Shown here in pieces: positions 1 through 10,523 of a DNA stretch of 64,000 nt. The DNA comes from an uncultured Lachnospiraceae bacterium (GTDB lineage Bacteria; Bacillota; Clostridia; Lachnospirales; Lachnospiraceae). The notes under the pieces are model-generated. The model saw nothing but the letters and a program-made list of their open reading frames with translations. It was not told the DNA's origin and made no database searches. Made by a program: the position numbers and the translations under genes. The DNA is taken from assembly GCA_905235745.1 (NCBI GenBank), contig CAJOMN010000001.1, positions 186,001-250,000 on the forward strand. Reading direction: 5' to 3'. The first letter of the stretch is position 1; the number at the start of each line of letters is the position of its first letter.

Positions 1-368
1 GCATGTTGGAAGAGGTTCTCTATATCTACATTGTCTTCAAGTGTTTGTCGGCCTGCTTCAGTTAATTCCTTAGTTTTAGGATCAATATGTCCATACGTGA
101 AGGCTTCTGTACGTAATATAGACCTTACCAGGCTTCGATCTATTCCAGTCAATGCACTAATTCCATTTGAGTTCGTTATTCCCGCATCAGCCAGTCTTAG
201 TACAAGCAATTCAACGCTATCATACTCATCGATAATGTACTCTTTAACATCGGCTTCTATGATAGAGACTGGGCACATAAAACTATGAAATATTTCTATT
301 TCATTGTTTTTTACTAATTCGGGACAGCATGTTTTAAACAGAGCAAGTTCATCCGTTTTGTTTTTCAT
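1..368 (-). CDS. Winged-helix-like protein, 3' end cut by window edge
   Basis: Reading leftward from an ATG at 366-368, an open frame of 122 codons runs off the window. It starts 2 nt after the helicase stop codon, so it is almost certainly the last visible gene of that operon. The first 40 residues are hydrophilic with a Cys pair (TCCPELV). Residues 48-100 (LLVLRLADAGITNSNGISAL, then a basic helix and a short beta-wing-like segment) resemble a winged helix-turn-helix DNA-binding domain. No catalytic motif is visible in the part present. The fold is inferred from the helix pattern only, and the missing C-terminus could carry the effector domain. Confidence 0.6.
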   Translation of the reverse strand, partial: MKNKTDELALFKTCCPELVKNNEIEIFHSFMCPVSIIEADVKEYIIDEYDSVELLVLRLADAGITNSNGISALTGIDRSLVRSILRTEAFTYGHIDPKTKELTEAGRQTLEDNVDIENLFQH

Positions 369-370
369 TT

Positions 371-3300
371 CTAGACCAATCCTTTAAGAAACTCGCCGGA
401 ATCGTAAATCTCACCTTTTCCGTTTTGTGCCTGTAATACCACTTTCCTGATAAACTCAGAGAATTTCTTCTCGCTTTGATTCGGTATTGGTTCTCCGGTA
501 ATCTCATCAATTCTTTCATACTCACAAGATGTCAGATAATCAAAATCCCCAATTATGACAAGCTGTATCTGACATCTGGTAAATGCAACATTTAAACGTC
601 TAAGCTCTTTTAAGAATCCCACTCGTGCTCTTGTCGGAGGAACTCTTCGCGGATCAGCACTCCTTGTGCAACTATATATTATCAACGGACGCTCCTGCCC
701 CTGAAAACTGTCAAGCGAAGCGACTATGCTACTTACGTTCTCCGGACTATATCCGAGCTTTGCCTCTTTTATCTTCTTTCTTATAAGTCTAACCTGTTTC
801 CCATAAGCAGAAATAATACCAACTCGAGGAGAAAACTCTCCACCTTCACTTGTTTTAAACACTTCGGAAGATATAGATTTAATTATCCTCGTTGATATAT
901 CAGCTTCAAGTTCATTTGAATATCCTCCACCCTGTTCCGCCTTTTCAAATCTTCTGTTTTCCTTACTTGTTGATATTAGAATTAATGGAGATTCTGTTCC
1001 TTTTATAATGGGGCTCCACTTACCCATATCGTATCTCGCATGATAATTGCCGTTATAAAACCACTCCGATATAACATCCGATATATTAGAAGGCATCCGA
1101 AACTGTTCATCTAATCTCGTTAAATTGGGAGTGTTCTCATCAAGCTTCTCAAATCTAGTAAACAGGTATTCGAAGAAGCTTTCTTCTAGCAGTTTTGTTT
1201 TGATTCCGTCATCATTACATAGCTTAACTACGGTTTCATTAGCAATTGGCGGGATCTGCAGATGGTCTCCAAGCATCAATGTCTTCGGTGCCCTCGTCAT
1301 AGGAACAATTGCATTATGAATCTGAATCTGACCACTCTCATCAATGATTGAAACATCAAAATCAAGATTACTAAATTGAGATCTTGTGTTTATACCAATA
1401 CATGTTGCGCCCACAATATTCGCATTCTGAATAAGAAGATTTGTTACAATTTCAGTACGATGCTTTTGGATGGAAATCTCCCAATCGTCCAATGCTTTAT
1501 TTACTTTATCAAGTTTCTCCTTAATGGCTAATAATTTCTCTTTATACTCATCAAGCAACTCTATAGGATCTGATTCAGGATCAATCATTCCACTTGTAGT
1601 CAAATACTCCGTTGTAAAAGGCCCTTCAAGATTAACCGCAAAAGAATACTTACCACATTTATCCATCATTTCTCTGTAGTCGTTCTTGGAAGCGACATAA
1701 TCCTGCCGATTAAAAAACTTATATAGTATATCAGCTTGATTATTGTAATCTTCTACTGCTTTGATAAGATCATCTGCCTGTATACTAAGTTGATTTATGA
1801 CTGAATTAAGCTCATTTTCAATTTTTTTTGTGACGCGCTTGAAAAGAATCCTCTCGATTCCAGTTTTCTTAGACAGCGACATCTTCGATATTTCCATATG
1901 GATTTTTGAAAGATTTGTTTTCCAATATTCGGTATATCTTGTTTGGACAGCGGCTTTTAATGAGTTTACATGCTCATATCTGGTCTTTAAATCCTCCGAA
2001 TACTTATTAAGGGCCTCTCTAGATGATACCAGCTTTTCAAAATCCGGTTTTACTGAGTCCAAAAAAGACAACCGTTCATCAACAGCAGATAAATCATGTA
2101 TAATCCATTGTTTGTTATCTTCAATCTTTTTTTTGTATTTCTCCGCAGCTTGTATTACTTGTTTTTCGGGGGCATATTGCTTACAATTATCCTGTATCTT
2201 CTCGATATCACCAATTCTGATTATTCGCGCATCTTTATCGCGACCAACTCTCTCTAGAACATTATCAACGGCTGAGTTATTCTGTGAAGATACAAGAACA
2301 CGTTTTCCATGTCTTATAAAGTACTTTACCCAATTGACTATAACTGTCGTTTTTCCTGTCCCAGGCGGCCCCAGTACAAGCTGAATATCCTTCGTTTTAA
2401 TGCCTCGCTCTATCGCTTCCATCTGTGAGGCATTAGGTCTGTGCTCAAGTTTTGATAGTTCTTCTTTAAACTCATCCCATCCTGGCGCGTCTTCTTCATC
2501 AGTGTCCGGACGCCCTTTCTTGCCAAACAGTCGATACATATATTTTGAATCAACTGTCCCGTTCTCAATACCTTGAACAACGCGTTCTCGAACACGCTTT
2601 TGTGTATCATTTACCTGTAAGTAGATGTGACCATTATTGGCAACAAGAATATCATTATCAAACTGTTCAATAATGTCTATTGTAAATGCTGTCCCATTTT
2701 CATCCTCAATCCGGTCTGATATTACACCTTTAAGTTTTCTATTCAGATCCTGGTTTATTCTCTCGCTTGTTTCAATAGCAACGCGATTACCGAGTTGGTA
2801 AAGCTCATTATCCGGGTCAAACGATGTTGAATAAAAACAGTATGTTTTCTTTCTAGCAGAACTTTTTACAAACTTATATGAATCATAGTTGATATAGTTT
2901 TCTCTATAGGCATCTAACTGTTCTGCCAGATCCTCATAATGTGTGAAATTCTTAATTGGTTGAATGATTTCCTTGTAGAACTTGTTATCAACTGTATAGT
3001 TGTTTATTTTTTCTGTGCTAAAGAAGTATTCATCTATCCCGTCACACAATTCTCTTAATCCTGAGGGAGACATTCCCCAATCTGTGGAAGTCCGTACGAG
3101 GGATGAATGTTTATACCCATCGGCAACAATAGATACTCCACCCCGAAGTATCATTAGTAAAACGCCTTGATTGTACATGTATTTCTTCTGTGTCTGGAAT
3201 TCTTTTGATGAGAAGATTCGTGTTATAGCAAAATTGTAGTTTTCAGATAGTTTAACATTAAACTTGTAGTTTCCAGTCATCATGACGTAGTAATCTCTGT

Positions 3301-3475
3301 CTTCTCGAACAATATGATTACATACGGTTATATATTCAGACCGGATTATCTCATTAACAAAACCGTCCCTTATTTCAGGATAATCCGAAGCAACTCTGCT
3401 CCCCATGTAGAAACAGAGTTCCTCGTTGATTTCATAGTAGTTAAGTGGCCGTAAATTAAGCGTTTTATTCTGCAT
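371..3475 (-). CDS. UPF1/DNA2-like superfamily 1 helicase
   Basis: A 1034-residue protein. The N-terminal 340 residues match nothing I recognise. An SF1 helicase core follows: Walker A GPPGTGKTT near residue 370, the Q/Ia-like segment VLVSSQNNSAVDNVLERVG, a long helical and probably coiled-coil insertion at about 450-690, Walker B as IIDESGQ near 712, motif III GDHLQIPP, motif V SFQGQERPLIIYS near 925 and motif VI LNVAFTR near 962. This is the UPF1/IGHMBP2/DNA2 clade, whose members unwind RNA or DNA with ATP. No nuclease motif is evident. GAGGAG lies just before the ATG. The start overlaps the end of the 53-codon gene and the stop abuts the winged-helix gene, so all are likely co-translated. 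The role is unknown; the neighbouring kinases suggest a regulated stress or antiphage function. Confidence 0.88.
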   Translation of the reverse strand: MQNKTLNLRPLNYYEINEELCFYMGSRVASDYPEIRDGFVNEIIRSEYITVCNHIVREDRDYYVMMTGNYKFNVKLSENYNFAITRIFSSKEFQTQKKYMYNQGVLLMILRGGVSIVADGYKHSSLVRTSTDWGMSPSGLRELCDGIDEYFFSTEKINNYTVDNKFYKEIIQPIKNFTHYEDLAEQLDAYRENYINYDSYKFVKSSARKKTYCFYSTSFDPDNELYQLGNRVAIETSERINQDLNRKLKGVISDRIEDENGTAFTIDIIEQFDNDILVANNGHIYLQVNDTQKRVRERVVQGIENGTVDSKYMYRLFGKKGRPDTDEEDAPGWDEFKEELSKLEHRPNASQMEAIERGIKTKDIQLVLGPPGTGKTTVIVNWVKYFIRHGKRVLVSSQNNSAVDNVLERVGRDKDARIIRIGDIEKIQDNCKQYAPEKQVIQAAEKYKKKIEDNKQWIIHDLSAVDERLSFLDSVKPDFEKLVSSREALNKYSEDLKTRYEHVNSLKAAVQTRYTEYWKTNLSKIHMEISKMSLSKKTGIERILFKRVTKKIENELNSVINQLSIQADDLIKAVEDYNNQADILYKFFNRQDYVASKNDYREMMDKCGKYSFAVNLEGPFTTEYLTTSGMIDPESDPIELLDEYKEKLLAIKEKLDKVNKALDDWEISIQKHRTEIVTNLLIQNANIVGATCIGINTRSQFSNLDFDVSIIDESGQIQIHNAIVPMTRAPKTLMLGDHLQIPPIANETVVKLCNDDGIKTKLLEESFFEYLFTRFEKLDENTPNLTRLDEQFRMPSNISDVISEWFYNGNYHARYDMGKWSPIIKGTESPLILISTSKENRRFEKAEQGGGYSNELEADISTRIIKSISSEVFKTSEGGEFSPRVGIISAYGKQVRLIRKKIKEAKLGYSPENVSSIVASLDSFQGQERPLIIYSCTRSADPRRVPPTRARVGFLKELRRLNVAFTRCQIQLVIIGDFDYLTSCEYERIDEITGEPIPNQSEKKFSEFIRKVVLQAQNGKGEIYDSGEFLKGLV

Positions 3476-3626
3476 ACGGACTCCTCAATAGTTGTTCTTT
3501 TGTTTGAACATCATATTGAACAGTGATGACAATATCTTCTTCCTCTGATAATCCAAGAATCTGCTTGTCAATATCATCTAAGACAATTTGGCTATTATCT
3601 TCTGTTTTCACTTCTGTATTTTCCAT
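3465..3626 (-). CDS. Small acidic protein between kinase and helicase
   Basis: A 53-codon frame from ATG 3624-3626 to TAA 3465-3467. It is preceded by AGAGGT nine bases upstream and overlaps the kinase gene by 32 nt and the helicase gene by 11 nt, the nested arrangement of a translationally coupled operon. The product begins MENTEVKTED and is rich in Asp and Glu, with a predicted amphipathic middle (QIVLDDIDKQILGLSEEED) and a short beta-like tail. There is no Cys, signal peptide or membrane segment. I recognise no family. It could be an adaptor, a kinase substrate or an antitoxin-like partner. Support is the ribosome-binding site plus perfect packing between two genes. Confidence 0.62.
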   Translation of the reverse strand: MENTEVKTEDNSQIVLDDIDKQILGLSEEEDIVITVQYDVQTKEQLLRSPYAE

Positions 3627-4488
3627 TGACTTTACCTCTATTATGAGCTCGATACACCATTTTTAATGCTTCGTATAGTTCTTTAGCATTCATATAACGG
3701 TCAGCCGGTTTTAATGATAATGCTTTTTCAAGTAGTTTCCCCAGTTCCGGATAATAGTCTAAGCCCACTCTCGAAATATCCTTCTTTTCCTCCCATTTTC
3801 CCCCCGTCTGATCCGGAATCAAATCCACACCATATCTCAATGGAGTAATATTGAATAGTTCAAGGCCTATCTGTGCAAGCGCAAACACATCCGATGATTG
3901 AATAACAAAATTAGTATTTGCTCCTCTTATCTGTTCTGGCGCCATATATTTTTCTGTACCAACACCCTTGTTGGTCATTCCGGGACCACTAATTCCATAG
4001 TCTAAAACATATACTTCATTTCTTCGATTTATAACTATGTTTTCCGGCTTTAAATCCTTATGAACAAATCCTTTCAAGCTATGGATATAAGAAACGGCTT
4101 TTACTATATTCATAAGTAGTTCGTACTGGTCCTTATACCACTTTTCTTCATTTTCATTCACTCCATGCGAATCATTAAGACGATCTCGGAGAGTTTTTCC
4201 TTCTATATTCTGCATCTCAATGACTATTGAAGATATCTTATTTTCAATATGATAACTATATATAGAGGGTATATATTCTGTGTATTGCTCTAAGGCAATT
4301 TGGTTGTTTATTTCTTCTAGAATACGACGTTTTTCCTCTTGGCTCTGATATTTTTGAATCTTTAAGACAACTCGTCTTTTCAACAAATCATCTATAGCAA
4401 CACATACTCTTGTTCCTGTGGCATCGTTTCTATGCAAATCACGTTCTATTGTAAAGCTCCTGTCATAAGAATAATTAATCTTCTCCAT
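3595..4488 (-). CDS. Hanks-type serine/threonine protein kinase (soluble)
   Basis: A 297-residue kinase domain with no membrane segment or extracellular part, unlike PrkC-type kinases. Visible elements: the VAIK-like Lys in VVLKIQK (K43), an alphaC Glu in ILEEI, catalytic loop HKDLKPEN (143-150), the metal-binding segment as DYG instead of DFG (163-165), activation-segment GTEKYMAPEQI and the SSDVFAL helix. The glycine-rich loop is poor (RNDATGTRV), but all phosphotransfer residues are present, so it should be active. Its start lies inside the end of the upstream pseudokinase gene (14-nt overlap, GAAGGAAT before the ATG). Substrates are probably its operon partners; this is inference. Confidence 0.9.
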   Translation of the reverse strand: MEKINYSYDRSFTIERDLHRNDATGTRVCVAIDDLLKRRVVLKIQKYQSQEEKRRILEEINNQIALEQYTEYIPSIYSYHIENKISSIVIEMQNIEGKTLRDRLNDSHGVNENEEKWYKDQYELLMNIVKAVSYIHSLKGFVHKDLKPENIVINRRNEVYVLDYGISGPGMTNKGVGTEKYMAPEQIRGANTNFVIQSSDVFALAQIGLELFNITPLRYGVDLIPDQTGGKWEEKKDISRVGLDYYPELGKLLEKALSLKPADRYMNAKELYEALKMVYRAHNRGKVNGKYRSENRR

Positions 4489-5776
4489 TTACCAATTCCT
4501 TCTTTAGCATTTCGTCAAACTCTCTTATGCTTGGTATCTGCTTTAGGGAAGCCGCCTGTGTAATGCGATCTAACTCGTCAATAAAATCATCCGAATAATA
4601 ATCATATAATGCTGATGTGTCGATGATGCCGGTTTTCTCTACCGTTGGATCCAAGCTTGATACCATAATAACTGCTAATGAATACACGTCCCCTGCTTCC
4701 CAATCATTTCCATCATATTCTCCGTCGCTTCTCAGTAGTGGGTGAGTATATATATTTTTTGATGCCGCTTGAGACACCCATGAGTATACGGTTTCCATGT
4801 TTTTTTCTGAATAATCAATCTTTGCCATTTCAAAACAACCGATTTTTGCTTCATATCCATCATCAAATGAAGTAACAAATATGCATGTCGGGCGGATTCC
4901 CCTATGATGAATACTAATCTTAGAAGAAGCTAGGTTGCTCAACCCATTAGTGATCTGTTCAATAATATCAAGCAATTCATATGGCTTAAGCTTTTCTGCT
5001 ATTTCGTCAAGAGTTCTTGTGTTTTCCTGAATCTCATATTTTAAATACTTAAGGTCACAGTACCTGCTTGTTCTTAACTCATCTCCTTTGATTATACTGT
5101 TTGATCCTCTCATATTCTTAAAGAACATCTGGGCTTCCATATCTCTATCATTAAATACCGTACGATCATCAGTATTAAGAAAAGGTCTTATATATGCGTA
5201 TGTTGAGATATTATCGTTTTTCTTTCGAACGATATATTTATAATCTCCTTCTATTGATTCATATGGCCTCTTCTCTATCTTATTTATTACTTCATATTCT
5301 CCAAAGGGAAGCATTGTTGGTTCAATCATCTTCGAATTGACCCTAAAAAGCTTCGCTAAAGAATCATATAGCTTAATCGTTAAGTGGCAAGCCATTTCAA
5401 CATTGGCATGTCTGTCTGTGATCTCATACTTTCTTACTCCCGATACCTCTTTGGAGATGTGTACAATTTCGTTGGCTTCTTTTTTTAATTCGTAGAACGG
5501 ATTGATATCCTTTCTTTCAACCCATAATCCGGGGATTCTTTTACATTCTCGCATTGTTGCTGATAATGTATCTGGAAGTTCTGTATTTCCGGCATCCAAA
5601 TATAATCCTGTAAATAGTATCTCCATAGCCTGCCTAATGTTTACTAAACACGTATCGGGATCAATACGTGTTGCCATTTCTGCTGCAATACACATACTGT
5701 GCAGTTCTTTCCATGCCCCAAAAACTTGACTCCTATTATTAGGCATCTTTACTTCTATCAAAAAATCGAAAAACAT
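4475..5776 (-). CDS. DUF4145/HEPN-like domain fused to a pseudokinase
   Basis: I take the ATG at 5774-5776, which has GGAG upstream, rather than an in-frame TTG seven codons earlier. The N-terminal 145 residues are helical and resemble the DUF4145 (HEPN-related) domain often joined to restriction or helicase proteins (IRQAMEILFTGLYLD, EANEIVHISKEV). Residues 155-430 look like a protein kinase fold that has lost catalysis: the HRD loop is HHRGIRPTC (290-298), DFG is replaced by GCFE (313-316), and the activation segment lacks APE, while the GDVYSLAVIMVSSL helix is kept. It is likely a regulatory or scaffold partner of the active kinase encoded next. First gene of the operon. Confidence 0.7.
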   Translation of the reverse strand: MFFDFLIEVKMPNNRSQVFGAWKELHSMCIAAEMATRIDPDTCLVNIRQAMEILFTGLYLDAGNTELPDTLSATMRECKRIPGLWVERKDINPFYELKKEANEIVHISKEVSGVRKYEITDRHANVEMACHLTIKLYDSLAKLFRVNSKMIEPTMLPFGEYEVINKIEKRPYESIEGDYKYIVRKKNDNISTYAYIRPFLNTDDRTVFNDRDMEAQMFFKNMRGSNSIIKGDELRTSRYCDLKYLKYEIQENTRTLDEIAEKLKPYELLDIIEQITNGLSNLASSKISIHHRGIRPTCIFVTSFDDGYEAKIGCFEMAKIDYSEKNMETVYSWVSQAASKNIYTHPLLRSDGEYDGNDWEAGDVYSLAVIMVSSLDPTVEKTGIIDTSALYDYYSDDFIDELDRITQAASLKQIPSIREFDEMLKKELVNGED

Positions 5777-5971
5777 CGTGTATTCTCTCCGTTCCAATCA
5801 TTATAAGATACACTTGTTTTTCTATCAATATGCTTCTCATTTCTGCTAGATATTTGTAAGTAGTAGATGATAATACATCAGAATTTTGGGAGACAACATA
5901 AACCATTAGTTTATAAAAAAGAAGCCTCTCATTTAAGAAAGACTTCCTCTCGTCACCATCTGTCGCGGATT
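5777..5971. promoter_or_regulatory. Intergenic region likely holding the kinase/helicase operon promoter
   Basis: A 195-nt A+T-rich gap between the DUF4145-pseudokinase start and the stop of the upstream lipoprotein gene. All genes from 5776 to 1 are packed without gaps, so their promoter must lie here or further upstream. I see no clean pair of consensus hexamers. A weak minus-strand open frame through the gap (GTG start near 5975) has no ribosome-binding site and I do not call it a gene. Confidence 0.3.
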
Positions 5972-6883
5972 TCACTCATATCTCCCTTTTCTATGTATCA
6001 CACCATCTGTAAGATTGGTTATGACATCGGGAGCGTTGATCTTTATCTGGGCATCATCGCCGTCTATGGTCATCTCAACGGTATATACAAATCCATCCAC
6101 GGGAACCCAACCTTCGCCTGGGGAGTCGATCTCACAATGATCGAAGGTTATGAGAACCGTATTGTCGCCGGTTATCTTGTATGTACCGGTATCATTGTTC
6201 CGGTATCCGAAACAGTTTGCAGATCCGTCCCGTCCAAGATCTATCCTATAACTGGTCGCCCAGTCATTGTACTCATCATATCCCTCCGTGTACCATATAC
6301 CTGAAGCAAGAGTTCCAAGGTCTTCTACACCCATTATCTCATGGTTCAGTTTTCTGTAATCGTCGTCAAAATCGTCCCAATAATACTCGTCTGCTTCCTC
6401 AAGTGTATCTCCCATACGGACAAATAATGTATCTTTCTCACCGAAAGATAAAACAAACACAGTCTCAAAGCCGTCATGGCTTCCATCAAACACAGCGGTA
6501 TAGTCCTCACCATGATATTCAAAACCGGCTTCCGGATCATCCACTACACCCCTGTCTTCAACAAAAACCTCATATTTGTTCTCGGAAATCTTTTTGACCT
6601 CTGCTATCTTCGCATCCGGCAGGATATCGGAACCGAACCATCCTCTTGTTATGGTAGTTCCCTCAAATTGCTCGAAGACTCCGCCGTCATTACCCCATAC
6701 TCCTGCTATTTTATCCGTAAATTCCTGTACGGGATCTATATCCTCTACATTATCTTCCGGTGCTTCCGTTGGCGTAGATGTAACCGTCTCATTTACTGTA
6801 TTATTATTCGAAAAGCTTTGATTTGCAGTACATCCAGCCAAAAAAAGCGACATAGATACCAGTATTACTGTAAGCTTATTCAT
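5972..6883 (-). CDS. Secreted lipoprotein with two lipocalin-like repeats
   Basis: A 303-residue protein starting at ATG 6883 (AGGGGG seven bases upstream; an earlier in-frame GTG is too close to that site). The signal peptide ends in lipobox LAGC, so the mature protein is lipid-anchored outside the membrane. A Thr/Asn/Pro-rich linker follows. Two similar segments then open with a G-[VI]-W motif (KIAGVWGNDGG and LASGIWYTEGYDE) and are predicted all-beta, the pattern of small lipocalin-like lipoproteins of Clostridia. The protein is very acidic. No catalytic residues are recognisable. It may pair with the short ORF upstream, whose stop overlaps this region. Confidence 0.75.
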   Translation of the reverse strand: MNKLTVILVSMSLFLAGCTANQSFSNNNTVNETVTSTPTEAPEDNVEDIDPVQEFTDKIAGVWGNDGGVFEQFEGTTITRGWFGSDILPDAKIAEVKKISENKYEVFVEDRGVVDDPEAGFEYHGEDYTAVFDGSHDGFETVFVLSFGEKDTLFVRMGDTLEEADEYYWDDFDDDYRKLNHEIMGVEDLGTLASGIWYTEGYDEYNDWATSYRIDLGRDGSANCFGYRNNDTGTYKITGDNTVLITFDHCEIDSPGEGWVPVDGFVYTVEMTIDGDDAQIKINAPDVITNLTDGVIHRKGRYE

Positions 6884-7108: not shown

Positions 7109-7462
7109 TCAAAGATATTCATTCCAGCAGTCGTTATAATCTTCGACCGTTTTGATTCCAAAGAGCGTATAAATAACATCCCTTCGCGTATCTAATATCC
7201 GAATGATTTTTACAAAATCGCCATCCACACGATAAAATGCATAATTCTTGTGTGTAACAAGATATGCATAATCAGTATCGATACCGTATTTTCTGAACAT
7301 CTCCATACTTCCGGAATCGGGATACTCCTCAAGAATCCTCAGATCAGAAAAAATGCCCCTAAGAATCTTTTTCTCGAGCGCTTCACCGTAATTGGTGTCC
7401 AGATCCTCTTTTAAGATCTCCAAATCGTTTAAAGCTTCGGGAGACAGATCGATCTTCTTCAT
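7109..7462 (-). CDS. ParE/RelE-family toxin
   Basis: A 117-residue basic protein with the ParE/RelE pattern: an N-terminal beta-strand (KKIDLSPEALNDLEILKEDL), two helices, then the strand YAFYRVDGDFVKIIRILDTRRD, where the family has its conserved Tyr/Arg surface. Members either cleave mRNA on the ribosome (RelE) or poison gyrase (ParE); the sequence alone does not decide. It overlaps the upstream antitoxin gene by 4 nt (ATGA), the usual antitoxin-first order. The same frame stays open for 33 codons beyond the TGA; see findings. Confidence 0.85.
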   Translation of the reverse strand: MKKIDLSPEALNDLEILKEDLDTNYGEALEKKILRGIFSDLRILEEYPDSGSMEMFRKYGIDTDYAYLVTHKNYAFYRVDGDFVKIIRILDTRRDVIYTLFGIKTVEDYNDCWNEYL

Positions 7463-7704
7463 AATCCAAGTCTTTCTTCAGCATCATCAATAGAGATCCA
7501 ACCGTCCCTGCGGGCGGATTGTTCACCTTTTTCCAACTCTGAGAATAATCCTTTAAGAGCCTTCAGCTCATCCAGTTCATGGATGTCCACTATTGCATAA
7601 TCACCTCTCCCGTTCTTTGTCAGATAAACCGGGCTGCCGTATTTAACCTGACTGAGAACATTCTTATAATTTCTTAGATCGGATACGGGAACGATATTAG
7701 GCAT
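7459..7704 (-). CDS. Phd/YefM-family antitoxin
   Basis: An 81-residue protein. ATG 7702-7704 has a textbook AAGGAGGT site, so I choose it over a longer in-frame start at 7749. The N-terminal half (IVPVSDLRNY, SPVYLTKNGRGDYAIV) is the Phd/YefM DNA-binding fold that represses its own promoter. The C-terminal half is a charged helix that would mask the toxin. It is directly upstream of and coupled to the ParE/RelE-type toxin gene. Such pairs maintain plasmids or islands or act under stress; here the pair lies in the A+T-rich accessory region. Confidence 0.88.
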   Translation of the reverse strand: MPNIVPVSDLRNYKNVLSQVKYGSPVYLTKNGRGDYAIVDIHELDELKALKGLFSELEKGEQSARRDGWISIDDAEERLGL

Positions 7705-7893
7705 AAGCAACCTCCTTGCGTCTACTGATTTTCCGGTTGATAATATCATAACATTTTACGATTAATATGTCACGTAATTTGGCACATAATTATATTTATA
7801 AATGCGATTTTCAGAGGGATTTAGTTTCGCATTCTTAAGTAAGTATACCAACAAGAAAGCCACAGACAGATCCATGTCTGTTGCCAAGATCTC

Positions 7894-9108
7894 TCATATG
7901 GCTTTAATAGGAATCAATCTGTTTTTTGCATCCAGAGGAATTATCGAAGATGACATGCAAAGAACGGCACCCTCAGCTGTTTCTTCTTGGAGAGAGTCCA
8001 GTACCGAGAAATTCTTCAACGCATTTTTTCCGGGATCAGCATTCATTTTTATCTCCACGGGATATAGCTTTCCGTTCTCAATTATCATCAGATCAATTTC
8101 TTTCCCGTTATTGTCTCTGTAATAAGTCAACCTGCTTCTGGGTTCAATGCCATTATTTGCATAGCTCTTGTATATTTCGGAAATTACATAATTCTCGAAC
8201 ATTGCTCCGGCCATCGCCGATAACTCCAAAGCCCTTGCGTTATTCCACATGCTTAAATAACAAGACAGGCCGGTATCCATAAAATAAAGCTTGGGTCTTT
8301 TAACAATTCGCTTTATGGTATTACCGAAATATGGATTTAAAAGCACCACAATACCGGATGTTATCAGGATTGAAAGCCAACTGTCAGCTGTTTTTCGATC
8401 AATATCAACGTCCCTGGCAAGATCTGAGAGATTTACTTCCTGACCGGTTCTTGCCGCAACACAAGATATAAACTTAATGAATTTCCCCTCATTTTTGATA
8501 TTGACCAGATCACGTATATCTCTTTCGATATAGGTCTGCATATATGATCCATAGTAATCTTCCAAAGATAATCCGGGATCGCTTATGATCTGTGGCATTC
8601 CACCTCGCAGTATTTTGTCGAAAATATCAGATATAACGTCATTTGAAGTTAGATTCTTAGTAGTGGAAGGGTTAAAGGGAACACTATCCCTGCCTTCAAT
8701 CTCGGAGCGAGACAGGGAATACATGGATAATATGCCAACCCTGCCGGCTAAAGACTCGCTGACATTATTCATCATGTTAAACATCTGAGATCCTGTCAGA
8801 TAGTACTGTCCGCTTGTTCTTTGCTCATCAACCTTTATTTTGATAAATGGCAATAATTCAGGGGCATACTGAATCTCATCAATGATAACAGGAGCAGCAT
8901 ATTGCTGCAAAAACAGTTCCGGATCCGTTTTGGCAAGATTCCTGATTCTCGGATGATCCAGCGTTACATATTGGATATCTGACTTATGTTCAGCAATCTT
9001 TTTCAAAAGTGTTGTCTTTCCGACTTGTCTCGCTCCGCAAACCAGAACAACAGGGAAATGTTCTGCCATCTGCTTAACTCTTATCTCGAGACTTCTTTTT
9101 ATATACAT
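7894..9108 (-). CDS. AAA ATPase, DUF4143 family
   Basis: A 404-residue protein starting at ATG 9108, with AGGTGA upstream (an in-frame TTG one codon earlier is less likely). Walker A is GARQVGKTT (about residues 26-34), Walker B VIIDEIQYAPELL, and sensor-1 YYLTGSQM. The C-terminal half is the DUF4143 domain with a PD-(D/E)xK-like core: E...KEIDLMI then PVEIKMN. This abundant family of single-gene ATPases is often annotated as ATP-binding protein; its role is unresolved, with suggestions of selfish or defence functions because copies scatter in accessory DNA. It stands alone here, next to a toxin-antitoxin pair. Confidence 0.85.
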   Translation of the reverse strand: MYIKRSLEIRVKQMAEHFPVVLVCGARQVGKTTLLKKIAEHKSDIQYVTLDHPRIRNLAKTDPELFLQQYAAPVIIDEIQYAPELLPFIKIKVDEQRTSGQYYLTGSQMFNMMNNVSESLAGRVGILSMYSLSRSEIEGRDSVPFNPSTTKNLTSNDVISDIFDKILRGGMPQIISDPGLSLEDYYGSYMQTYIERDIRDLVNIKNEGKFIKFISCVAARTGQEVNLSDLARDVDIDRKTADSWLSILITSGIVVLLNPYFGNTIKRIVKRPKLYFMDTGLSCYLSMWNNARALELSAMAGAMFENYVISEIYKSYANNGIEPRSRLTYYRDNNGKEIDLMIIENGKLYPVEIKMNADPGKNALKNFSVLDSLQEETAEGAVLCMSSSIIPLDAKNRLIPIKAI

Positions 9109-9191
9109 CAAATCACCTCATACAAATAGGGAGTGCAATTCCTTATTTGTATTATATTCAAATGTATATCATTTTTCAACAAGTAAATATA

Positions 9192-10523
9192 CTAATACTC
9201 CGGTAAGCGGCAACCTGTATGCTTAACATATGCGTCCGAATATCCCTTGTTCTTAAGATTTTCCAGCGCTTTGTCCGCTTCACTCTTCTGTGTATATGTA
9301 CCGCAGGTAACGCAGTAATACGGATCTTTATTTAAGTTTTCCCATTCGGGCGAGTAATATACTCTTGCATCAAACCCTTCATCATTTAACTTACGGGCTG
9401 CCTCCACCGCAGCATTATAATCCTTTGATGACGCAATCCATACTCCGAAAAATCCTTCGCTAAGTGTATCTAATCCCCCGGGATCTCCGAACTCTTCATA
9501 ATCCGCAAAAGTTGATTCATCAAGTTTTATCTCGTTGACAGAGTAAACATGAATATCCTCCCTGACGGCTTTTCTAAGCTTGACCTCATCTCCCAGCACG
9601 GAAATCTCATCAACGTATTCGAACACAATGCTCAGCCTGTCTCCTTCAAGCTTATATCGTCCGCTCCACTCATACGGCTCATCGCCGCTTCCGAGGAAGT
9701 TCATCATGCATTCGATCTTCCCGTTTTGTGCCGCGTATCCGCCTGCTGCATAGACCACTTCACTGTCAGGCTTCTTCTGATATATACGTACATTACTTCC
9801 GTCAAAATCAACCCATACGCTTTCATCTTCACCGATTCCACGCCACAGCCCGTCAAGCTCATGGGCTGATTTTTTGCTCTCATCGTTCAGATAGACAAAA
9901 ACATCTTCCACACGCTCATCCCTAAGGTAAAGAGTACTCTCACCCGGATTTACACACAAAAAACCGTCGCCGAAACCTTCAAAGATTATCCCGTCATCGG
10001 ACGCCTCAACATAACCGTGAACAGGCTCACTCCAATATTTACCGAAATTACTCATTACGGAAAATTGAAGAAGATTAACTCCGACCCTCATCTTTCCGGT
10101 ATCGGACATATCGGAAGCGTTATCCGGCAAAAACTCCATTGCCCAGAAACTGTATGCCTCAAGAATATCCGGGTCTTCATTCCCGATAGCCTCTCCGGCA
10201 TAAGCATACAGATTATCTCCGAAAGATATGACATCTAATATATAATACTCATCTTCCTGCCCGTTACCGGCAACATGGTAACTGTATTTACCGCAAAGCC
10301 GGCTGGCAAGAGAAGGCTTGGTATTCCTGATATCTTCCTTCACGGGTTCTGCGGAATCCGCTGCTTCGGTTTGTACTTCAGATTGAACTTCGGTTTGTAC
10401 TTTATCCTGGGATTCTTCTACGGTGCCTGATGTGTCCCGACCGGTGTTTTTATCACACCCTGTCAGGAGGACACAGTACAAAGAAAAAAAGAGTATTGAT
10501 TTGAGAACGGGTGATTTTTTCAC
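9192..10523 (-). CDS. Lipoprotein with C-terminal SPOR domain
   Basis: Secreted lipoprotein with lipobox LLTGC. The longest frame starts at ATG 10559, but its first 12 codons (MKIGGAHGVEDP) lie in a duplicated intergenic repeat and give an acidic, atypical signal-peptide start. GTG 10523 gives MKKSPVLKSILFFSLYCVLL, a normal signal peptide, with GGAAG five bases upstream, so I prefer it. The middle 300 residues are acidic and beta-rich and resemble no family I know. Residues near the end (GVWIASSKDYNAAVEAARKL ... YYCVTCGTYTQKSEADKALE) form a SPOR fold, which in other proteins binds denuded peptidoglycan glycan strands. Probably cell-wall associated. Confidence 0.75.
   Translation of the reverse strand: MKKSPVLKSILFFSLYCVLLTGCDKNTGRDTSGTVEESQDKVQTEVQSEVQTEAADSAEPVKEDIRNTKPSLASRLCGKYSYHVAGNGQEDEYYILDVISFGDNLYAYAGEAIGNEDPDILEAYSFWAMEFLPDNASDMSDTGKMRVGVNLLQFSVMSNFGKYWSEPVHGYVEASDDGIIFEGFGDGFLCVNPGESTLYLRDERVEDVFVYLNDESKKSAHELDGLWRGIGEDESVWVDFDGSNVRIYQKKPDSEVVYAAGGYAAQNGKIECMMNFLGSGDEPYEWSGRYKLEGDRLSIVFEYVDEISVLGDEVKLRKAVREDIHVYSVNEIKLDESTFADYEEFGDPGGLDTLSEGFFGVWIASSKDYNAAVEAARKLNDEGFDARVYYSPEWENLNKDPYYCVTCGTYTQKSEADKALENLKNKGYSDAYVKHTGCRLPEY

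Follow-up and report, generated by a model that had tools for sequence, protein, structure and literature searches.

We found that a pseudokinase, an active Ser/Thr kinase, a UPF1-like helicase and a winged-helix protein are encoded together on one strand at the edge of the window (the whole stretch of DNA that was analysed, 64,000 nucleotides), and that this gene set recurs in the same order across phyla. We lean modestly towards viewing the operon as an unnamed antiphage system related to Mokosh but split into separate genes. A helicase would serve as the sensor, kinase and pseudokinase would form a switch, and in this version the two would act on a membrane effector. The case for a role in defence is built on homology, patchy distribution and modular swapping of parts.

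Gene layout and sequence setting

The operon covers positions 371-5776 of the minus strand plus the start of gene 5 at position 368 (Table 1). From gene 1 to gene 5, successive genes overlap by 14, 32 and 11 nt and are then separated by a 2-nt gap. The five genes, their shared strand and their order are those given in the initial annotation, but the run is longer than it described, with two membrane-protein genes following at short gaps beyond the window edge. The start of gene 1 (ATG at 5776) is backed by an MFFDF start common to its relatives at L014 and L015. The promoter-like site upstream of gene 1 is to be read as a consensus match only, because the scan gave 47 sites, compared with 38.3 (sd 7.9) in shuffled sequences.

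Table 1. Features of the operon and of its continuation past the window edge (L002 coordinates where marked)
Feature	Position	Strand	Remarks
Gene 1: DUF4145/HEPN-like N-terminal region and C-terminal pseudokinase	4475..5776	-	433 aa
Gene 2: Ser/Thr protein kinase, motifs intact	3595..4488	-	297 aa
Gene 3: small acidic ORF between kinase and helicase	3465..3626	-	53 aa, net charge -10
Gene 4: UPF1/IGHMBP2-like SF1 helicase, MkoA-helicase-like	371..3475	-	1034 aa
Gene 5: winged-helix protein, first part	1..368	-	Truncated by the window edge; complete gene 339 aa (L002:9349-10368)
Zn-ribbon protein, 4 predicted TM segments	L002:8817-9335, past window edge		13-nt gap after gene 5
CorA-like protein, 2 C-terminal TM segments	L002:7521-8798, past window edge		18-nt gap
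Coiled-coil/1-TM protein	L002:6291-7286, past window edge		234 nt after CorA-like gene
Promoter-like site TTGATA-17-TATAAT	5800..5828	-	Directly 5' of gene 1; 11/12 consensus positions, top minus-strand score

The A+T-rich setting noted earlier was confirmed, with a GC content of 0.35-0.38 over positions 1-6000 versus 0.46-0.52 beyond 20 kb. The toxin-antitoxin pair and the DUF4143 ATPase said to lie nearby were both found: a ParE-type toxin (7109-7462, minus strand; 2.2e-7) with a Phd/YefM-type antitoxin (7459-7749, minus strand) that scored 4.8e-5, below the Pfam cut-off, the pair lying some 1.3 kb from the operon on its upstream side, and an AAA_14/DUF4143 ATPase beside the operon (7894-9111, minus strand). 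On the other flank, a protein resembling an AAA_14/DUF4143 ATPase in sequence appearance is encoded at L002:1332-2588 (minus strand). Also downstream of the operon, one gene encodes a CdiA_C-domain protein of 127 aa (L002:5302-5685, minus strand; 5.3e-16) and another an HTH_3 protein (L002:5754-6020, minus strand), and small ORFs at L002:618-1145 and L002:4670-5244 have the appearance of toxin-antitoxin pairs.

The 53-residue acidic protein of the initial annotation is present as gene 3. An ORF of 44-76 aa lies between kinase and helicase in 23 of the 43 loci with a readable gap, and its net charge is negative in 18 of 22 such ORFs that were aligned. A profile of gene 3 recovered the window copy and that of L014 alone.

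Recurrence across genomes

Scanning 84,980 species genomes with an alignment of two helicases gave at least 55 loci in several phyla, a lower bound because exact short peptides were required. These loci were chosen by the helicase alone, and the neighbouring genes had no role in the choice; together with the window's own locus and one from Azospirillum, 57 were examined. Two kinase genes lie upstream of the helicase in 37 of the 45 loci with room for them (>3.5 kb), at least one in 40 and none in 5, and a winged-helix gene adjoins the helicase in 49 of the 55 loci with room downstream (>1.5 kb). These counts stand as computed: L010 was scored as a miss in the kinase tally though both kinases are present, and in ORF calling the Azospirillum kinase was overlooked and L059 read wrongly. 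Since the same order recurs across phyla, the association of these genes goes beyond chance. The initial annotation's grouping of pseudokinase, kinase, helicase and winged-helix genes extends as a conserved unit to many other genomes. Of three genomes found later, one (G517) has the full core, and two (G1015 and G1084) have the helicase and winged-helix gene with no kinase; five loci of the class-level search were taken as already in the set and left out of this new tally. A scan of genome contigs with P0004 as the single query gave no relatives, none were found in viral contigs, and the five matches in phage records span just 28-29% of the query.

The Azospirillum lipoferum copy, on plasmid AZO_p1, was reached by tblastn against plasmids. 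Its genes follow one another in the order gene 1 (product of 683 aa), active kinase, helicase, winged-helix gene (419 aa) and CorA-like gene (423 aa). The helicase is 31% identical to that of the window and matches the PADLOC model of MkoA at 9.9e-96, and the winged-helix protein matches MkoB at 9.2e-8. The gene 1 product has phosphatase-like, NERD-like and pseudokinase regions, with a weak SpoIIE-phosphatase match (0.0026) and a match to PglW over model positions 14-440. Two adjoining genes on the opposite strand, from reading their ORFs, are presumably BrxL and PglZ. On a Sinorhizobium plasmid (L069), an annotated PP2C-type phosphatase (9133-9918) directly follows a Mokosh-like kinase-helicase and its partner. 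Systems like these two may contain a kinase/phosphatase switch.

Among close relatives the genes are rare. The window's own genome has one copy of the helicase, and the pseudokinase was found in 1 of 61 related genomes, namely its own, with 36 others of the genus among those searched. At order level, 6 of 392 genomes had a helicase match at E ≤ 1e-20; the five other than its own matched over the C-terminal third only, at 32-34% identity. With the own genome counted, the two-helicase profile at E ≤ 1e-60 had matches in 2 of 398 genomes at phylum level and in 8 of 391 at class level.

This rare and patchy occurrence of the pseudokinase and the helicase clade, together with the A+T-rich block beside a toxin-antitoxin pair, argues against a host operon for stress or RNA surveillance with no defence role. 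UPF1-like helicases do function in RNA quality control, and such a role would fit the neighbouring genes, among which defence genes are not clearly enriched; we nevertheless consider it very improbable. From 349 neighbours 114 were drawn at random, and 113 were scanned after L036:7298-12511 was left out. They matched 18 PADLOC families at 1e-25, including mad3 (three members), JetC, AbiLi, Csx1, Cas6 and AriA, although several of the 18 are likely to be matched by one protein. As a control, 37 ORFs elsewhere in the window matched three families with one member each. The 113 neighbours thus show no clear excess over these 37 ORFs, and we claim no enrichment because tallies of families and of proteins differ and the control is a single genome.

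Relation to Mokosh

Gene 4 carries AAA_11 (3.3e-40) and AAA_12 (2.1e-38) domains, and its relatives of solved structure, by sequence, are DNA2, SMUBP-2, SEN1 and NAM7/UPF1, in agreement with its earlier description as a UPF1-like helicase. It also matches PADLOC MkoA (PDLC03920) at 6.5e-103 over model positions 326-1086 of 1112. Gene 5, taken whole, matches MkoB at 1.7e-9 over positions 11-198 of 610, the N-terminal third of the model, and PF24409 at 6.3e-5, below the cut-off; the winged-helix profile in turn recovers the canonical MkoB of L012. Mokosh is outlined as a COG1112 RNA helicase with a PLD nuclease, which in type I are separate genes accompanied by a kinase domain (PMC11672841). The window operon shares with type I this UPF1-like (COG1112) helicase, a Ser/Thr kinase that is part of the system (gene 2) and a partner with an MkoB-type N-terminal region. 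By contrast, the kinase and helicase that are fused in MkoA are separate genes in the window, neither a PLD motif nor a PLD family of Pfam was found in the window partner, and the operon adds a pseudokinase gene and, where Mokosh has its nuclease, membrane-protein genes. The operon is thus related to Mokosh yet, as tested, lacks two defining features of type I, the fusion and the PLD nuclease, and for now we do not class it as Mokosh.

The PLD motif HxKx4D is absent from gene 5 and from 50 of 51 winged-helix partners, the sole case (L020) having it at the extreme C terminus. Pfam found no PLD family in gene 5 or, at E ≤ 0.1, in 37 long relatives, and in the C-terminal part of these long proteins its matches showed nothing consistent. 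Canonical MkoA proteins from plasmids comprise six short ones (1136-1184 aa), each with one kinase fused to the helicase, and five of their six partners have the motif. In two long plasmid MkoA proteins (L074 and L075; 1607 and 1678 aa) a pair of kinase-like regions precedes the helicase, and neither of their partners (496 and 479 aa) has HxKx4D. As in the window operon, two kinase-like regions and a helicase belong to one system here, but they form a single polypeptide, with a NERD-like N terminus by reading, and the partner is not matched by the winged-helix profile. In a separate observation, helicase and winged-helix protein appear to be fused in a single 1397-aa ORF in the region of L024:9001-11424.

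These long proteins bear on whether the operon is no more than a Mokosh type I system whose MkoA has come apart into several genes and whose PLD nuclease is too diverged for its motif to be detected. They already have two kinase-like regions, and, because their partners also lack HxKx4D, a PLD nuclease need not show the motif; the MkoA and MkoB matches in both the window and Azospirillum point the same way. Even so, we think this unlikely. HxKx4D occurs in 1 of 51 winged-helix partners, at the end of the L020 protein, against 5 of 6 for short MkoA, and the match of gene 5 to MkoB is confined to the segment given above. Furthermore, in a tree of 66 helicases (ORFs of ≥900 aa; L059 and one outgroup outlier dropped), 50 of this set form one clade apart from eight MkoA (UFboot 99), although this monophyly is partly favoured by sampling, because the loci were gathered with helicase patterns.

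The initial annotation had called the operon a candidate undescribed system. In the full sense 'undescribed' does not hold: Mokosh models are matched by both the helicase and the winged-helix protein, and a pair of inactive and active kinases has already been published for PglW and DndF (PMC12839542, PMC10853773). The refuting condition named in the initial annotation, a match of the set to a known system, applies by half. Parts of the set match Mokosh, whereas the complete set does not, since no PLD nuclease was found and kinase and helicase are not fused. In searches covering chiefly open-access literature we found no publication describing this gene set, and no published case of the kinase pair combined with this helicase as separate genes.

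Kinase pair, membrane partners and a proposed mechanism

In the kinase domain of gene 1, HRD is replaced by HRG and the DFG position reads GCFE, whereas gene 2 has intact HKDLKPEN and LDYG motifs and a Pkinase match of 1.5e-24, bearing out its description as an active Ser/Thr kinase. This division holds across the set. The DFG aspartate is missing from all 42 pseudokinase sequences and the HRD aspartate from 39, while 47 of 49 other kinase sequences keep both; the two exceptions are fragments at contig ends. The best PADLOC match of gene 2 is PD-T4-6 (3.1e-33), followed by MkoA (3.7e-25; model positions 9-282). Gene 1 matches the kinase region of MkoA (1.2e-9), PglW (0.0027) and the MADS6 kinase (2e-12, below that model's cut-off). 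A relation of the parts to antiphage proteins thus holds up, through MkoA and MkoB of Mokosh and, for the pseudokinase, PglW and MADS6.

The lost motifs uphold the pseudokinase half of the initial description of gene 1. The DUF4145-like half stands through relatives: DUF4145 was detected in 9 of 23 scanned relatives of the window-type gene 1 (E ≤ 0.01), and the window protein itself matched no Pfam family at that cut-off. DUF4145 is a member of the HEPN superfamily (PMC3710099). The region in the window protein reads K-x3-N-x3-H and does not fit the HEPN RNase motif R-x4-6-H. Across 23 proteins of this type the asparagine and histidine are invariant, and the arginine position holds R in 18 of them and K in the other 5. 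Because the arginine is missing in the window protein, there is less reason to think that this HEPN-like region, joined to a pseudokinase, might act in the manner of RNase L or IRE1, and a catalytic role of that kind is set back. In the proteobacterial type of gene 1, the corresponding part is a NERD region whose D, E and K residues are the same in all 13 proteins; no NERD region was found in window gene 1.

PglW is described as combining NERD with inactive and active kinases and DndF as having them in tandem, and in both the kinases have been proposed as suicidal co-effectors (PMC12839542 and PMC10853773). PglW, of BREX type 2, and DndF share with the operon the unit of an inactive and an active kinase, along with NERD in the proteobacterial form of gene 1, but each of them is one polypeptide whose C-terminal half is different. 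Compared with PglW, the window has two kinase genes and a DUF4145-like rather than a NERD N-terminal region. By analogy, the kinase could itself be the toxic effector, held back by the pseudokinase as a brake and released by the helicase as a trigger. The proposed suicidal role in PglW and DndF, the invariant NERD residues of the proteobacterial proteins and the PglW match of the Azospirillum gene 1 product are consistent with this. It leaves the recurrent membrane genes and a winged-helix/membrane fusion unexplained, however, and the DUF4145 version in the window is without NERD; we regard it as doubtful, indeed quite unlikely.

A simple hydropathy test predicted, for 26 of 51 loci, a TM segment in the product of the gene that follows the winged-helix gene (11 Zn-ribbon TM, 9 CorA-like and 6 other proteins). 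A membrane partner is not universal, because in 9 of the 51 the co-directional next gene is without a TM segment and in 16 no co-directional gene directly follows. The type of partner goes with the length of the winged-helix protein. Where a Zn-ribbon TM protein is encoded, the winged-helix protein is short in all 11 loci (309-381 aa); in the 41 loci without one it has at least 407 aa in 37 and is shorter in 4. In G517 the winged-helix protein (733 aa) itself has four predicted TM segments. The clearest hint of cooperation between winged-helix and membrane proteins comes from this length split and the G517 fusion, and a membrane output is probable.

We propose that the helicase, with the winged-helix protein, is a likely sensor of abnormal nucleic acid in infection. 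The gene 2 kinase would be the signalling enzyme, regulated by the gene 1 product, which joins a DUF4145-like N terminus to the pseudokinase. Through phosphorylation, activation could then reach the winged-helix protein and the membrane proteins that go with it, and the Zn-ribbon TM and CorA-like proteins, once activated, might stop growth or disturb the membrane, protecting against phage. The active kinase may also phosphorylate the helicase or the pseudokinase, as the initial annotation proposed. Weighing against this proposal are the loci with no kinase upstream, those with no membrane partner, the weak CorA likeness, the better match of gene 2 to PD-T4-6 than to MkoA and the lack of clear defence enrichment among the neighbours. 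As far as can be inferred, the operon would work like a Mokosh-type sensor system, a mechanism that we found described in outline alone.

The swapping of parts would also fit a separate defence family with exchangeable ends, which we put forward tentatively as a possible reading. Its constant core would be pseudokinase, kinase, helicase and winged-helix protein. The gene 1 N terminus would be exchanged, as a NERD nuclease in Proteobacteria and a DUF4145/HEPN-like region in most Bacillota. The output would lie in the long winged-helix proteins or in the membrane proteins, with a phosphorylation relay running from helicase to membrane.

In the favoured Mokosh-related split form, active kinase, pseudokinase, helicase and output each reside in a protein of their own, so each step could be removed singly and the role of the kinase tested directly. 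This makes testable the question of what kinases do in helicase-based and PglW-type defence. If the membrane link is true, protein phosphorylation would connect nucleic-acid sensing by a UPF1-like helicase with an effector in the membrane.

By reading, the genes that follow the winged-helix gene at L028:12897-14435 and L029:12860-14374 encode proteins with an Hsp70/DnaK-like beginning. The CorA-like protein P0011 has no GMN motif. The CorA-like proteins resemble those of PADLOC in their two C-terminal TM segments and in weak matches to the CorA profile (9e-6 and 3.8e-7), but differ in the long, unrelated N-terminal part of P0011 as well as in the motif. All seven matches listed at E ≤ 1 for their family profile against solved sequences were CorA (best E 0.019).
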